Assembly (NCBI GenBank): GCA_012512265.1
Contig: JAAZEM010000054.1
Span: 32,480 to 96,479, forward strand
Source of the DNA: Armatimonadota bacterium
GTDB lineage: Bacteria; Armatimonadota; JAAZEB01
DNA: 64,000 bases
Reading direction: 5' to 3'
This document shows, in pieces, positions 5,058-53,018 of this stretch (positions are counted from its first letter, which is position 1; each line of letters opens with the position of its first letter). The notes beneath the pieces were generated by a model that was not told the origin of the DNA, made no database searches, and was given only the letters and a program-made list of their open reading frames with translations. A program made the position numbers and the translations under genes.

Positions 5058-5947
5058 ACTTCCGGCACCTTCCAGTTCTCGCGCCAGCGGCTGCTCTCGG
5101 ACGGCGGCTCCTGGTTGTTCCACGCGTCCTGGAGAGTCATAAACTCCTTCAGATGGGGGCGCACCACGTTCTCCCACAGCGTCTCCACCTGGGCAAAGGT
5201 GCGCAGCGTGTGCGCCGGCTTCTCGCGCTCATAGGCATCCAGCAGCTCGCGCGCCTTTTGCCCAAGGTAGCGCACCTCATCCTCGACCATGCGCTCGCCC
5301 GTCCGGCGGTTGGAAAGGCGCGCGGTCGCTCCCATAGCAAAGTGCGTTCCTGGCGTCCCTTCCGCGGGCATCCGCGAAAGATCCACGCACTCTGGATTGA
5401 GCGCCCACAGGAGCGAGGTCTCCACCTTGCCGGCGTGATCGCCTCCGCTTTGGTTGTTGTTATCGAAGCCGGGCACGTTGGCCTCCCAGTCCGGGAGCGC
5501 GTAGAGGCGCGTGCCCACGCAGGGCTGCACCAGCTCGACCAGCTTCTTCAGATCCTGCCAGTTGGGCCCGTAATGCCCGGTGAGGAGGATGCAGGCGTGA
5601 AACCCGTGGGAATCGGCGGTGCGGATCTGGTAGAGCACGTTCTTGAAGTGTTGCCAGGGCGGCAGCGCGGTGAGCCAGGTCCGCTCGCACTCGCCGACGT
5701 TCTTCTCCGACCAGATCGCGTAGCCGCCCAGCTCGTGGATGTGCCAGTAATCGGGCGGCGCCACGATGCCGCCATGCACGCGCGCCGCTGCACACGCGAT
5801 GCCATGCGCCTTCAGCATGTCGAGCCCGAGGGCGCAATGCGGCCCGTGCGGCTCGCACAATCCGTACGTCAGATAAAGGAGCGGGCATTCCGCGAACGCC
5901 TGCTCCAGTTGATCTGGGAACATCCGCTCCCAACGCACTTCACGCAT
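5051..5947 (-). CDS. Creatininase-family amidohydrolase
   Basis: MREVRWERMFPDQLEQAFAECPLLYLTYGLCEPHGPHCALGLDMLKAHGIACAAA...LLTGHYGPNWQDLKKLV...GGDHAGKVETSLLWAL: creatininase-type metal-binding motifs. Confidence 0.85.
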   Translation of the reverse strand: MREVRWERMFPDQLEQAFAECPLLYLTYGLCEPHGPHCALGLDMLKAHGIACAAARVHGGIVAPPDYWHIHELGGYAIWSEKNVGECERTWLTALPPWQHFKNVLYQIRTADSHGFHACILLTGHYGPNWQDLKKLVELVQPCVGTRLYALPDWEANVPGFDNNNQSGGDHAGKVETSLLWALNPECVDLSRMPAEGTPGTHFAMGATARLSNRRTGERMVEDEVRYLGQKARELLDAYEREKPAHTLRTFAQVETLWENVVRPHLKEFMTLQDAWNNQEPPSESSRWRENWKVPEVY

Positions 5948-5985
5948 CGTCTCTCTCCCTGTTCCAGCTATGACCACCGCCTCGC

Positions 5986-6771
5986 TCACGCGTCCGGCCA
6001 CCTCGCCTGCCCAGGCTGTCGTGACAGCAGCTCCACCGCCTCGAGGAGATCCCGAGCCACCGGCGCATCGCCCGGTGAGTGCTTTCCCTGGCGGTCGAGG
6101 AGGATGGGGGCGATGCCGGCGGCGCGAGCGCCCAGCACGTCGTTCTCATAAGAGTCGCCGATGTGGAATGCATCCTCCGCGGCAACGCCCGCCTGACGGA
6201 GCGCCTCGTGAAAGAGGCCCGGATCCGGCTTCTCGCACCCGCAGAGCGCTGAAATGATGACGCACTCCAGGTAGGCATTGAGACCGAGAACGCGGACCAC
6301 CTCTTGCAGCGAGCAGTCCCAGTTGCTGATAAGCCCGATACCGACTCCACGCTCCTTCAAGGCCTGGAGGGCAGGGAGCGCGTCCGGGTAGAGCTCGAAG
6401 CGGATGGCGTCCATCAGCGCGTCCACCATCTCTTCGCAGCCCACGGAGAGCGCGTGGCCTCGCTCGCGGAGCGCCTCGAGGAGCACGCCGGCGCATTCCA
6501 GGCGGAGGCGACGCAGCCGTTCGGGGTCACTTGCCTTCACGCTGTGCGCGATGTAGTAGGCGAACTCCTGGCGCATTGCCGCTTCCACGTCGCCCAGCGG
6601 GATGGAGTATCCGAGCGATTCCAGGTTCGCCTTCAGGCGCTCGAACGGGCGGTGGAGCGTGACCAGCGTGCCAAAGGCGTCAAAGAAGACGCACCGAGGG
6701 GAGGGCCTGCTGGACGAATGACAGGCCGCTGGCCGGACGGGTGTCACGCCAGGGTTTCCTCCCTCCAGCAC
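5986..6771 (-). CDS. HAD-superfamily hydrolase
   Basis: RCVFFDAFGTLVTL...GLISNWDCSLQEVV...CEKPDPGLFHEALRQAGVAAEDAFHIGDSYENDVLGARAAGI. Confidence 0.9.
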   Translation of the reverse strand: MLEGGNPGVTPVRPAACHSSSRPSPRCVFFDAFGTLVTLHRPFERLKANLESLGYSIPLGDVEAAMRQEFAYYIAHSVKASDPERLRRLRLECAGVLLEALRERGHALSVGCEEMVDALMDAIRFELYPDALPALQALKERGVGIGLISNWDCSLQEVVRVLGLNAYLECVIISALCGCEKPDPGLFHEALRQAGVAAEDAFHIGDSYENDVLGARAAGIAPILLDRQGKHSPGDAPVARDLLEAVELLSRQPGQARWPDA

Positions 6772-48064: not shown

Positions 48065-48865
48065 TTACCGGGGATGCAGGCTGCCGGGCACCTCCAGCCC
48101 GTGGGCCTCCATCAGCTCCGCGTTCGAAAGCAGCGCTGCGGATGGCCCATCGGCGACGACGCGCCCGCGATCGAGAATCACGGCGCGCGGGCAGAGCTCC
48201 AGCACCAGCTCCAGGTCGTGAGTGGCGATCAGTTTGGCAACCGGCAGTGCCTCGAGGACGCGGATCAGCTCGCGCCGGCCGCGCGGGTCGAGCGTGCTCG
48301 TCGGCTCGTCCAGGAGGAGCAGCTCCGGCTCCATCGCGAGCAGGGCCGCGAGCGCCACGCGCTTCTTCTGCCCCGAGGAGAGGTGGTGTGGGGCGCGCTC
48401 TTCCGTGCCTGTCATGCCAGTGGCCGCGAGGGCCTGTTCGATGCGCCGGTTCACCTCCTCTGGCGGCAGCCCCAGGTTGCGCGGCCCGAAGCCGACGTCA
48501 TCGCGCACGCGCGGCATGAAGAGCTGGTCGTCCGGGTCCTCAAAAAGCAGGCCCACCTTCTGGCGCAGCATCTTGAGCTCCGGACCCGCGGGTTTCAGCC
48601 CGAACGCCTCGATCTCGCCCTCGCCATGCAGGATGCCCACGAGGTGGAGCAGGAGCGTCGACTTCCCCGCGCCGTTCGGCCCGATCAGCGCCACGGCCTC
48701 TCCCGGGGCGATCTCCAGGTTCACCCCGTCGAGCGCGGGAGTGCCATCCGGGTAGCGATACCGGAGGCCGCGCACGCGGAGCGCGAGTGGGGCGGGTTGG
48801 AACTCCGGAGCCGGCGGCGCCGGAGCGCCGACCTCTGCTCTTTGCCTGTCCTGGGGAAGTGCCAT
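48065..48865 (-). CDS. ECF/CbiO-type ABC transporter ATP-binding protein
   Basis: RYRYPDGTPALDGVNLEIAPGEAVALIGPNGAGKSTLLLHLVGIL...VGLLFEDPDDQLFMPRVRDDVGFGPRNLGLPPEEV...HHLSSGQKKRVALAALLAMEPELLLLDEPTSTLDPRGR. Confidence 0.93.
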   Translation of the reverse strand: MALPQDRQRAEVGAPAPPAPEFQPAPLALRVRGLRYRYPDGTPALDGVNLEIAPGEAVALIGPNGAGKSTLLLHLVGILHGEGEIEAFGLKPAGPELKMLRQKVGLLFEDPDDQLFMPRVRDDVGFGPRNLGLPPEEVNRRIEQALAATGMTGTEERAPHHLSSGQKKRVALAALLAMEPELLLLDEPTSTLDPRGRRELIRVLEALPVAKLIATHDLELVLELCPRAVILDRGRVVADGPSAALLSNAELMEAHGLEVPGSLHPR

Positions 48866-49043: not shown

Positions 49044-51167
49044 CTATCGGAGTACGGCGAGCGTGACGATGTAAAGCAGAGCCAAGCTGCCCGGCCCGAG
49101 GAGCAGGCTGGGGAGGAGGCGGGCCTCTTCGGCGTCCTCGCCGTCGCGGCGCCCGGCGAATCCGGCGATGGCGGAGGCCATGAGGACCACGGCATACAGG
49201 GTGATGCAGAGATACCCCGCGTAGGTGATCTGCGGAACCGGATGGTGGTGCCGCAAGGTCATATGGGCGACGAGGGCGAGCAAGAGCGAAGCCGCCGTGA
49301 AGATCGCGCTCAGGGCGACGGAACCACGCGCCGGGCGCGCGATCACGAAGAGGAGCAGGAAGAGGGCTGCGATCATCGCGAGCAGCACCACCAGAGTATC
49401 GGCGACGATGGCGGGCACGCTATGCCGGGTTTGCACCACGAAGCCAAGCGCGGGGAGCTTCCCCTTCTGCGCGCCCGCTCCCTCCCCGGGCTGGTCCGGG
49501 AGATAAGCAAAGAAGCTGCGTTCGATCTCTCGGCCGGTGAGTTGGACATCCGCCGCGATCCCCGGGCATGCGGCGGGGTGCAGCCGGTCGTAGGAAGCGA
49601 CATCAGGCACCAGGATGATCGGCGTCTCCCCCTCCGGCGGCGCCACGCCCACGACCGTTTGCTGATGGTCGAAGGGATAGTGCCGGTAATCGTGGCCGCC
49701 GCGCAGCCGGGCGCGGAACTGCCAGCGCACCCACTCCGTGTTCCCTGCTTCCTCGCGCCTCTCGTCGCTGAGCGTGTATCCCAGCGTGCCGAGCAGGCGC
49801 ACGCCGCGGGGAACGCCTTCATGCCGGATACGGTCGTACTGCTGCCAGATCTCTCCGGCCATCTCCACGTCGCTCGCGCCAGAGAAGGCGAGTGAACGGA
49901 GGATCAACCCGGTGGGGATCACGGCTGCCGGCTCCTCGCCCCCTTCACGTGCCTGCTGGAGACGCTCGCGAAGGAGCCGGCCGTGGCCGGCACGTGTGAA
50001 GACCGGCGTCAGGCGGGCATCCGGCTCCGGGGGCAGGGTGTAGGCGAGGCACCAGGCGTGGGCGATAGCGGCCGCTATCGCCAGGGACGCCACGGCGCTT
50101 CCCGTCCAGAGAAGCGCTCGCCGCCGCGCAGCGTAGGTCTCCGCCAGCCGCGCGCCGAGGAAGGTGAGCAGGAAGAGGAGCGCCGCGATCTCCATCTGGA
50201 GGAGGCGCCTTGCCGTGGTTGCTTCCGAACGCCACAGCGGCCCGGCATCGGTGACGCTGCCCAGGACCCAGCCGCTGCTCGGGATGGGTTCGCCGATGTA
50301 CCAGGCCGGCCGGCCGGTGCTCCGGTCGATGTCGCGGAAGCGGAACGGCTTGCCCTGAAGCCCGCTCGCGGCGAAGGACGCAAGCGCCGCGTCGTTCCGC
50401 TCCGCCGCGAGCGAAGCCACGCTCTTGCCATCGCGAATCCAATCACTCGCAGGCGCGCAGAGGAACCGGCCTGTGCGCGTGGTGAGGAAGGCGTAGCCAG
50501 GAGCTCCCAGGTCGAACGAGAAGAGGAGCGCCGCCAGGTCATTCGCCGAGCAGGAGATCTCCACTACGCCGATCGGCTCGCGCGCTCCGGTCTCTTTATC
50601 CTCCCGGGTGAAGGGTGCGTAGTAGGTGATGATGAGGCGCTTCGCCTCCGGGGCGAAGCGCGGCTCGCCCCAGAGCGGTCCCTCGGCGAGCGCCCGGGAA
50701 AACCACTTGTTCTCCTCGTCAGTCCCCTCTTCGCGCCAGAGGATGCTTGGCTCCTCGCCGCCGGTGCCGCGGACGATGTACGGGCTAAAGACATGCCGTC
50801 GGCTCGATCGCTTGAAGGGAGCATACCTCACGCCCGCGCTGTAGACGACCGCGTGCGACCGCTGGAGAGCGCGCAAGCGGTCTAGAAGGCGATCCTCGGA
50901 GATACGGACGCGGCTGAGATCGGCGGCCAGCGTGTCGGCAGAGTGCATCACCCGCCGGCACACGCCATCGAGGCGACTGCTGGTTTGGCGTGCCTGATCG
51001 GATGCTCTTTCCAGCACGCGATCCTGCGCGGCGCGGTTCTCCCGATAGAGGGAAACGGCCAGTGCAAGGGTGATCAGGAGAGTGAGCGCGCTCAACACGG
51101 AGAAGGCGCGTCGGATAAAAGAGATGCGCTCCCAATAGCGCTTGGGATCCACGGTCCACACGGTCAT
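49044..51167 (-). CDS. Cache-like sensor domain plus pentameric ligand-gated channel-like membrane protein (predicted chimera)
   Basis: N-terminal TM, ~260-aa extracellular region (GPLWGEPRFAPEAKRLIITYYAPFTREDKETGAREPIGVVEISCS...FDLGAPGYAFLTTRTGRFLCAP) typical of dCache. After two TMs, a second region IPTGLILRSLAFSGASDVEMAGEIWQQY...EWVRWQFRARLRGGHDYRHYPFDHQQTVVGVAPPEGETPIILVPDVASYD...FFAY, then four C-terminal hydrophobic segments (VPAIVADTLVVLLAMIAALFLLLFVIA; GSVALSAIFTAASLLLALVAHMTL; ITYAGYLCITLYAVVLMASAIAGF; LGPGSLALLYIVTLAVL). Confidence 0.6.
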   Translation of the reverse strand: MTVWTVDPKRYWERISFIRRAFSVLSALTLLITLALAVSLYRENRAAQDRVLERASDQARQTSSRLDGVCRRVMHSADTLAADLSRVRISEDRLLDRLRALQRSHAVVYSAGVRYAPFKRSSRRHVFSPYIVRGTGGEEPSILWREEGTDEENKWFSRALAEGPLWGEPRFAPEAKRLIITYYAPFTREDKETGAREPIGVVEISCSANDLAALLFSFDLGAPGYAFLTTRTGRFLCAPASDWIRDGKSVASLAAERNDAALASFAASGLQGKPFRFRDIDRSTGRPAWYIGEPIPSSGWVLGSVTDAGPLWRSEATTARRLLQMEIAALLFLLTFLGARLAETYAARRRALLWTGSAVASLAIAAAIAHAWCLAYTLPPEPDARLTPVFTRAGHGRLLRERLQQAREGGEEPAAVIPTGLILRSLAFSGASDVEMAGEIWQQYDRIRHEGVPRGVRLLGTLGYTLSDERREEAGNTEWVRWQFRARLRGGHDYRHYPFDHQQTVVGVAPPEGETPIILVPDVASYDRLHPAACPGIAADVQLTGREIERSFFAYLPDQPGEGAGAQKGKLPALGFVVQTRHSVPAIVADTLVVLLAMIAALFLLLFVIARPARGSVALSAIFTAASLLLALVAHMTLRHHHPVPQITYAGYLCITLYAVVLMASAIAGFAGRRDGEDAEEARLLPSLLLGPGSLALLYIVTLAVLR

Positions 51168-51442
51168 CTGCACTCCCACGGCGGCACGGCGAGAGGCCGG
51201 TGCCGTATCGCCGGGCTTATGCCCTGCGACGGTGCAAGATTCGCCGCGCGTGGCGGTGATTCCCGCATCGTGATCAAGGAGAACAGAAACGTCCTGGGAG
51301 CGCGCACCTAGCATGGAAACGCCCGCCGGCCTCCGATGGCGTCACCAACCGGGTGCCTGTTTCCGTGCGCCTGGAGTGAGCGCGTCGAGGTGGGAGGTGG
51401 GAGGCCGCAGGCACTCCCCCCCACACGGCATGCGCTTCCGCG

Positions 51443-52075
51443 TCACTTCTTGTTCGGATCCCACAGGTTGAGGGGGGTCACATCCGTGCCGTGGCGCAGC
51501 CATTTGGCGTGGCCGTCGCAGAAGATGTAGTTGGCACCCTCCATGTGCCGGTCGCTTACGATGCCATCGGCGACATATGAGGGATCCGGCACCTGATTGG
51601 ACGGATAGGCGGGCCAGTCCGCGCCGGTGCGGCGCTCTGCGACGGCGACGCAGTCTGCTGGGCGGGGCATGCTGGGCATATCGCTCGCCACGTTCCAGCG
51701 CATCACCAGATAGTTGCAGCCGTAGGAGCCGGCCAACGCCGGAGCGCCGAGAGCCGGGTGCGCCGCGGTGTAGCTATAGGTACCCATACTTGGGCACTTG
51801 AAGACCCCTTCGTTCTTGACATAGGGGTAGACCAGGTGGCGCCAGTGGATCTGAACGCCCTTCGTATCGAGCATCCCGCCGATTGGATAGGTCTCGCTGT
51901 AATCCTGAACATACTGCATGATCGCGAGGCCCATCTGCTTGAGGTTGCTCTGGCAGGTGCTCTTGCGCGCGTTCTCTCGCGCTCGGGCGAAGACCGGGAA
52001 GAGGATCGCCGCCAGGATGGCTATGATCGCGATCACCACTAGCAACTCGATCAGGGTAAACCCATTGCGTCTCAT
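51443..52075 (-). CDS. Type II secretion/pilin-like pseudopilin with H-X9-DG motif (DUF1559-like)
   Basis: [67 protein letters not shown]...[24 protein letters not shown]. Confidence 0.95.
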
Positions 52076-52137
52076 CATCGCCTCCCGATGCCATATCCCT
52101 ATGCGGGGACTCTGTTGCCGACCCTCTTCGTTGTCTC

Positions 52138-52324: not shown

Positions 52325-52957
52325 TTACTTCTTCTTCGGATCCCACAGGTTGATCGGTGTTATATCCGTGCCGTGGCGCATCCACTTGACGTGCCCGTCG
52401 CAGAAGACGTAGTTGGCACCCTCCATGTGCCGGTCGCTTACGATGCTCGCGGCGACGTAGGAGGGGTCCGGCACCCGGTTAGACGGATAGGCCGGCCAGT
52501 CGGAAGTGCTGCGCCGCTCGGCCACGGCGATGCAATCCGCCGGGCGCGGCATTTCGGCCATGGCGACCGCGGTGCCCCAGGCCATCACCAGGTTGTTGCA
52601 CCCATAGGAGCCGGCCAGCGCCGGCGCGCCCAGCGCGGGGTGCGCCGCGGTGTATTCGTACGTCCCCATGCTCGGGCACTTGAAGACGCCTTCGTTCTTG
52701 ACGTAGGGGTAGATCAGGTGGCGCCAGTGGATCTGAACGCCCTTCGAATCAAGCATCCCGCCAATCGGATAGGTCTCGTCATAATCCTGAACATACTGCA
52801 TGATCGCGAGGCCCATCTGCTTCAAGTTGCTGGCGCAGTTCGACTTGCGCGCGTTCTCTCGGGCACGGGCAAAAACCGGGAAGAGGATCGCCGCAAGAAT
52901 AGCGATGATCGCTATGACCACGAGCAACTCAATCAAGGTGAATCCGGTTCGTCTCAT
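52325..52957 (-). CDS. Pseudopilin with H-X9-DG motif, paralogue of the adjacent gene
   Basis: [67 protein letters not shown]...[37 protein letters not shown]. Confidence 0.95.
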
Positions 52958-53018
52958 CGTCTCTTTCTGCCTCTTGGCTAGCATCACAACTCCTCCAGAA
53001 GCCCTCTTCGCCCTTCTA

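Follow-up and report, generated by a model that had tools for sequence, protein, structure and literature searches.

Bacterial pentameric ligand-gated ion channels (pLGICs) serve as models for nerve receptors, and their physiological ligands are mostly unknown. It was reported in 2004 that pLGICs (ART-LGICs) of Methanosarcina, Cytophaga and Microbulbifer occur as fusions with Cache and MCP-N domains, the extra domains being placed between the signal peptide and the ligand-binding domain (LBD), and multi-ligand allostery together with a role in chemotaxis was proposed for such proteins (PMC549065). The word Cache is absent from PMC4795631 (2016). One gene in the 64-kb stretch of DNA analysed here (the window, meaning the stretch at its full length) was originally predicted to encode a chimera of a Cache sensor and a pLGIC-like module. 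The fusion of these two halves has stood up to analysis, while its newness has been weakened: with the Cache-pLGIC fusions of the 2004 paper (PMC549065) the kind was already known.

The gene and its predicted topology

The gene is encoded on the minus strand, which the original prediction had left unstated, and, according to the open reading frame list and its translation, forms an intact frame of 707 codons. Its GC3 (0.826) is like that of the four adjoining genes (0.836-0.904), which, together with a GGGAG string 5 nt before the ATG, supports a real gene with its start at 51167; GC3 is 0.633 in a possible upstream extension (51168-51314) to an alternative ATG at 51314. Hydropathy places a transmembrane segment (TM) at residues 22-40, then a region of ~280 residues, two TMs at 321-339 and 351-369, a second soluble region, and C-terminal TMs at 592-610, 616-634, 653-671 and 688-706. 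This is the order first read from the sequence, namely one TM, a Cache-like region, two TMs, a second region and four hydrophobic segments. The features, in window coordinates, are as follows.

49044-51167, minus strand: whole gene, Cache plus pLGIC-like receptor of 707 aa (intact ORF, GC3, GGGAG)
51173-51177, minus strand: putative ribosome-binding site GGGAG (read directly)
51048-51104, minus strand: TM1, residues 22-40 (hydropathy)
50244-51032, minus strand: periplasmic dCache sensor domain, residues ~46-308 (Pfam, PDB matches PctB/PctA, Foldseek 3lib)
50151-50207, minus strand: TM2, residues 321-339 (hydropathy)
50118-50150, minus strand: short Arg-rich TM2-TM3 loop RLAETYAARRR, residues 340-350, predicted cytoplasmic by the positive-inside rule
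50061-50117, minus strand: TM3, leading into the LBD, residues 351-369 (hydropathy; model helix 351-377)
49926-50036, minus strand: TM3-LBD linker with one helix, residues 378-414 (model helix 392-408)
49428-49925, minus strand: pLGIC-type ligand-binding (extracellular) domain of about ten strands, residues 415-580 (profiles, hhalign, model, Foldseek)
49668-49679, minus strand: Pro-loop motif YPFD, residues 497-500 (aligns with GLIC Y119-P120-D122)
49425-49427, minus strand: pre-M1 Arg R581, candidate counterpart of GLIC R192 (one column off in the MAFFT alignment with GLIC)
49338-49418, minus strand: M1, residues 584-610, lacking the conserved M1 proline (model, alignment)
49245-49322, minus strand: M2, predicted pore-lining helix, residues 616-641, preceded by RPARGS (model, alignment)
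49230-49250, minus strand: M2-M3 loop HHHPVPQ, residues 640-646 (hydropathy, alignment)
49155-49229, minus strand: M3, residues 647-671, starting ITYAGY where GLIC has MTYTGA (model, alignment)
49050-49127, minus strand: M4, residues 681-706 (model)

The gene had been described as encoded alone, and this is a fair account of its setting, with pilin-like genes upstream and an ABC ATPase gene (48065-48865, same strand) beginning 178 bp downstream. An operon with this ATPase was considered and set aside, as all that speaks for it is the shared strand and the 178-bp gap. The pilin-like genes are a tandem pair encoding similar DUF1559 proteins (51443-52078 and 52325-52987, minus strand), and no RNA elements were found near the gene by Rfam.

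The Cache and pLGIC-fold halves of the protein

The assignment of the N-terminal half to the Cache family finds support in several searches. Pfam dCache_1 matches it with an E-value of 1.4e-7 and 31.8 bits, below the curated cut-off of 45; PctB matches at 4.4e-6 in a PDB sequence search, with PctA also among the PDB matches; and Foldseek with the full-length model retrieves the Cache structure 3lib, a dCache histidine-kinase sensor, at a TMt of 0.70. In the dCache_1AA motif of PctA, R126 and D173 are the key AA_motif positions, accompanied by W128 and Y129 (PMC10104139). The window residues that align with R126, D173, W128 and Y129 are N153, S205, W155 and F156, and since the key Arg and Asp are replaced, this domain probably binds something other than a plain amino acid of the dCache_1AA class. 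Two Cache-only matches in the phylum, one joining a Cache to a phosphatase-like output (L002) and the other a Cache-MCP protein (L004), were set aside, neither being related to the C-terminal half.

The C-terminal half alone has no match in Pfam or NCBIfam, including Neur_chan_LBD and Neur_chan_memb. No significant match came from single-sequence Pfam and PDB searches in which this half or its nearest relative was the query, and a single-sequence scan of genome contigs with the window protein recovered no relative. A profile of 25 homologous C-terminal halves searched against the PDB reaches GLIC at 4e-9, the best 60 rows being all GLIC, and in this alignment, which extends through M3, YPFD falls on YPFD. 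With a leave-one-out profile of 24 relatives the window sequence scores 174 bits, whereas none of 2000 shuffled copies exceeds 2.9, so that the resemblance to its relatives is not due to chance. The canonical reference consisted of eight canonical bacterial pLGICs, whose profile matches GLIC at 3e-52; hhalign of the clade profile against the canonical pLGIC profile gives 99.4% with an E-value of 1.5e-21, spanning the LBD to M3. In the opposite direction, the canonical profile A7, built without the clade, finds this locus and no other in the 5-Mb window genome (E 4.6e-7), and elsewhere recovers other clade members at ~1e-11 to 1e-21, as well as the Vibrio member at 1.4e-6.

The original prediction had been staked on a beta-sandwich and four-helix bundle in this half, and this test did not refute it: in the AlphaFold model ten strands are followed by four helices, as in pLGICs. 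Confidence in this model is low (pLDDT 53; pTM 0.44, and 0.38-0.44 over the models made), because the alignments were shallow, with only seven sequences. The 50 best PDB matches of this model in Foldseek are all pLGICs (best E 8e-12). Significant homology across both the LBD and the channel domain, which is one mark of the pLGIC superfamily, was found, and a beta-sandwich extracellular domain (ECD) followed by four TM helices, which is another, is seen in the low-confidence model. The string HYPFDHQQ, singled out at the outset as a Pro-loop feature, lies where it was first placed, at residues 496-503 (window 49659-49682), and follows the strand WQFRARLR; the metazoan Cys-loop cysteine pair flanking the Pro-loop is absent, with no Cys in residues 480-520. 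On the strength of the single-sequence Pfam and PDB searches and the low model confidence, it could be argued that this half belongs to some unrelated family of 4-TM membrane proteins whose YPFD-like loop arose by convergence; such a reading is already disfavoured by independent profile evidence both ways and by the fold match, and we regard it as highly improbable. Taken together, the homology of each half, its predicted fold and the TM order establish that one chain combines a Cache sensor with a pLGIC-fold module, the latter distantly related to the ion channels of animal nerve receptors.

The divergent clade and its gene neighbourhoods

As judged from its sequence, the window gene is a member of a divergent pLGIC clade, apart from canonical pLGICs. 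In the tree this clade splits from the eight canonical pLGICs with 100/100 support, and the window protein is its most divergent member, sitting on the longest branch (2.34) without a firm position inside the clade. The clade is found in cyanobacteria, gammaproteobacteria and Armatimonadota and goes unrecognised by those Pfam and NCBIfam models that were tried; its members are therefore probably left annotated as 'hypothetical protein'. Relatives of the window C-terminal half occur in two genomes of Armatimonadota (G050, G126) and in Acaryochloris and Vibrio plasmid records, while matches were obtained in 16/292 cyanobacterial genomes, two of them (G488, G550) with canonical pLGICs only, and in 9/321 gammaproteobacterial genomes, one of which (G673) has a canonical pLGIC only.

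A survey of homologues for the fused architecture, which had been proposed as a check, found the layout in Vibrio (full length, at 21-23% identity), cyanobacteria and gammaproteobacteria, and the order TM1-Cache-TM2-TM3-LBD-M1 to M4 is that of most clade members. Three TMs precede the LBD in all complete long members (19/19). A domain of ~280 residues lies between TM1 and TM2 in 14 of the 25 modules, the window included, and is a Cache by Pfam in the relatives scanned (L038, L021 and L026); a domain of ~160 residues, the size of a single Cache, is present in five (L032 being without a Pfam match), two (L003, L006) keep the TM hairpins with the domain absent, three are short modules with a single N-terminal TM, and one (L044) is cut by a contig end. 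The TM2-TM3 pair is missing beside the LBD in the PBP-I-fused canonical pLGICs L037 and L045. In Armatimonadota, L003/L012 and L006/L011 have three N-terminal TMs and no Cache, with a ~290-aa protein bearing a hydrophobic N-terminus encoded upstream.

The Pro of the pLGIC Pro-loop, [F/Y]PxD, is 100% conserved (PMC4795631, Table 1), the pre-M1 Arg that pairs with the loop Asp is found in 94% of pLGICs, and frequent but non-defining residues are the beta9 Trp (71%), the M1 Pro (77%) and the M2-M3 Pro (88%) (PMC4795631). The window protein has YPFD, and Pro is present in 25/25 clade members; R581 stands one column off GLIC R192 in MAFFT, with Arg in 23/25 members and invariant in the clade alignment A8. 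At GLIC W160, P204 and P247 the aligned window residues are Arg, Val and His, although the M2-M3 loop HHHPVPQ has prolines near the P247 position, and across the clade the beta9 Trp is kept in 23/25, the M1 Pro in 18/25 and the M2-M3 Pro in 0/25. Judged from these alignments, the window copy has degenerated at sites through which, in known pLGICs, the ECD is coupled to the pore, and the missing beta9 Trp and M1 Pro lower confidence in its channel function, not in its homology. The string PAR before M2 resembles the anion-selective motif of glycine and GABA receptors; it was rejected as such, being three common letters in a GC-rich protein with no counterpart in other members, and no ion selectivity is claimed.

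These losses, the longest branch and the absence of the M2-M3 Pro throughout the clade would fit a pLGIC-fold receptor that no longer conducts, in which ligand is sensed by Cache and LBD and the signal is passed on by the cytoplasmic loops or by a partner protein. We consider this unlikely, given that the protein retains its four helices and Pro-loop, has very short cytoplasmic loops and has no output domain.

In three gammaproteobacterial genomes a Cache-pLGIC gene is followed 27-95 bp later, on the same strand, by a standalone canonical pLGIC gene (G787, L084:1549-4794; G657, L085:2897-6195; G828, L086:2891-6159). Such adjacency suggests heteromeric bacterial pLGICs, and it lends itself to the reading that the window protein is one subunit of a heteromer in which the Cache-bearing subunit regulates a canonical one. 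On the other hand, neither profile finds a second pLGIC in the window genome (219 contigs, 97% complete); a single pLGIC implies a homomer here, and a heteromer at this locus is quite improbable.

Other features of these neighbourhoods may be recorded. G787 has a third pLGIC gene (5568-6740), and G828 has one in-frame stop in each of the two adjacent genes. Proteins with eCIS_core (PF13699) adjoin pLGIC genes in three places (L084:6746-7387, L085:1959-2825, L090:2181-3371), and in L084 and L085 the Cache-pLGIC gene comes after genes for TPR proteins. In Vibrio (L014:696-5831), genes for a methyltransferase-like protein, an SBP_bac_3/membrane protein, a small membrane protein and the Cache-pLGIC follow one another with 4-bp overlaps; PBP-II neighbours of bacterial pLGICs were noted in 2004 (PMC549065). 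Three very long ORFs (G763, L070:184-3612; G870, L076:1-3519; G819, L082:1342-3345), with similar lengths seen in G618, G702 and G826, have an LBD region matched by the pLGIC profile before an MscS pore domain (PF00924), and L070 and L076 additionally start with a PBP-I domain and end with a cNMP-binding domain. They resemble mechanosensitive-type channels on which the ligand-binding domain of a pLGIC has been mounted, an arrangement for which no paper was found in the open-licence literature.

Candidate mechanism and relation to known receptors

Pfam and NCBIfam scans found no output domain in the window protein other than the C-terminal module, in agreement with the original prediction, and because the cytoplasmic loops are also short, the four-helix module is the only candidate output. 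A Cache-gated pentameric channel is likely; the pentamer, conduction, gating and ligand are what we infer. As in chemoreceptors, TM1 and TM2 would anchor a periplasmic dCache sensor. TM3 would lead to the pLGIC ligand-binding domain and M1-M4, and five subunits would be arranged around an M2 pore. Binding of a small molecule to the Cache domain could displace TM2, TM3 and the Arg-rich loop between them, thereby biasing channel opening, with the LBD as a possible second input site; an ion channel may, in other words, be under the direct control of the Cache sensor, which would open or close it. As a rule Cache domains form dimers; this is a poor fit to a pentamer and counts against this explanation. 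The whole of it, a seven-TM pLGIC-type subunit passing Cache input to a channel, nevertheless seems to us reasonably probable.

A wider proposal, that a distinct clade with three N-terminal TMs uses an anchored Cache to gate through the membrane and in some bacteria forms two-gene heteromeric receptors, is put forward tentatively and is open to considerable doubt. Such a clade, with anchored Cache domains that can be screened in isolation, offers a way of finding natural ligands and of learning how a pLGIC is controlled by an accessory domain.

Among known systems, the dCache_1 chemoreceptors PctA and PctB share with the window protein a membrane-anchored dCache and the ligand-motif Trp and differ in that the latter has no MCP output and has the Arg and Asp of the amino-acid motif replaced. 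GLIC, the proton-gated channel of Gloeobacter (PDB 3eam, 6zgd), is the best profile and Foldseek match, sharing the Pro-loop YPFD, the four helices and probably the pre-M1 Arg, which stands one column off in alignment, but it has neither a sensor domain nor N-terminal TMs. The N-terminal domain of DeCLIC is of the jelly-roll type, not a Cache, and is not known to have intervening TMs. DeCLIC (PMC9897478) is alike in being a bacterial pLGIC with an additional N-terminal domain. The 2004 fusions (PMC549065) are the same in kind, with a Cache N-terminal to the pLGIC LBD and four-TM channel domain in one chain, and may belong to this clade; according to their published description they differ from the window protein, whose Cache is anchored by TM1 and TM2 and whose LBD comes after a third TM. 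Compared with these fusions as described, the apparent novelty lies in the clade itself and in the membrane anchoring of its Cache, with three TMs ahead of the LBD.
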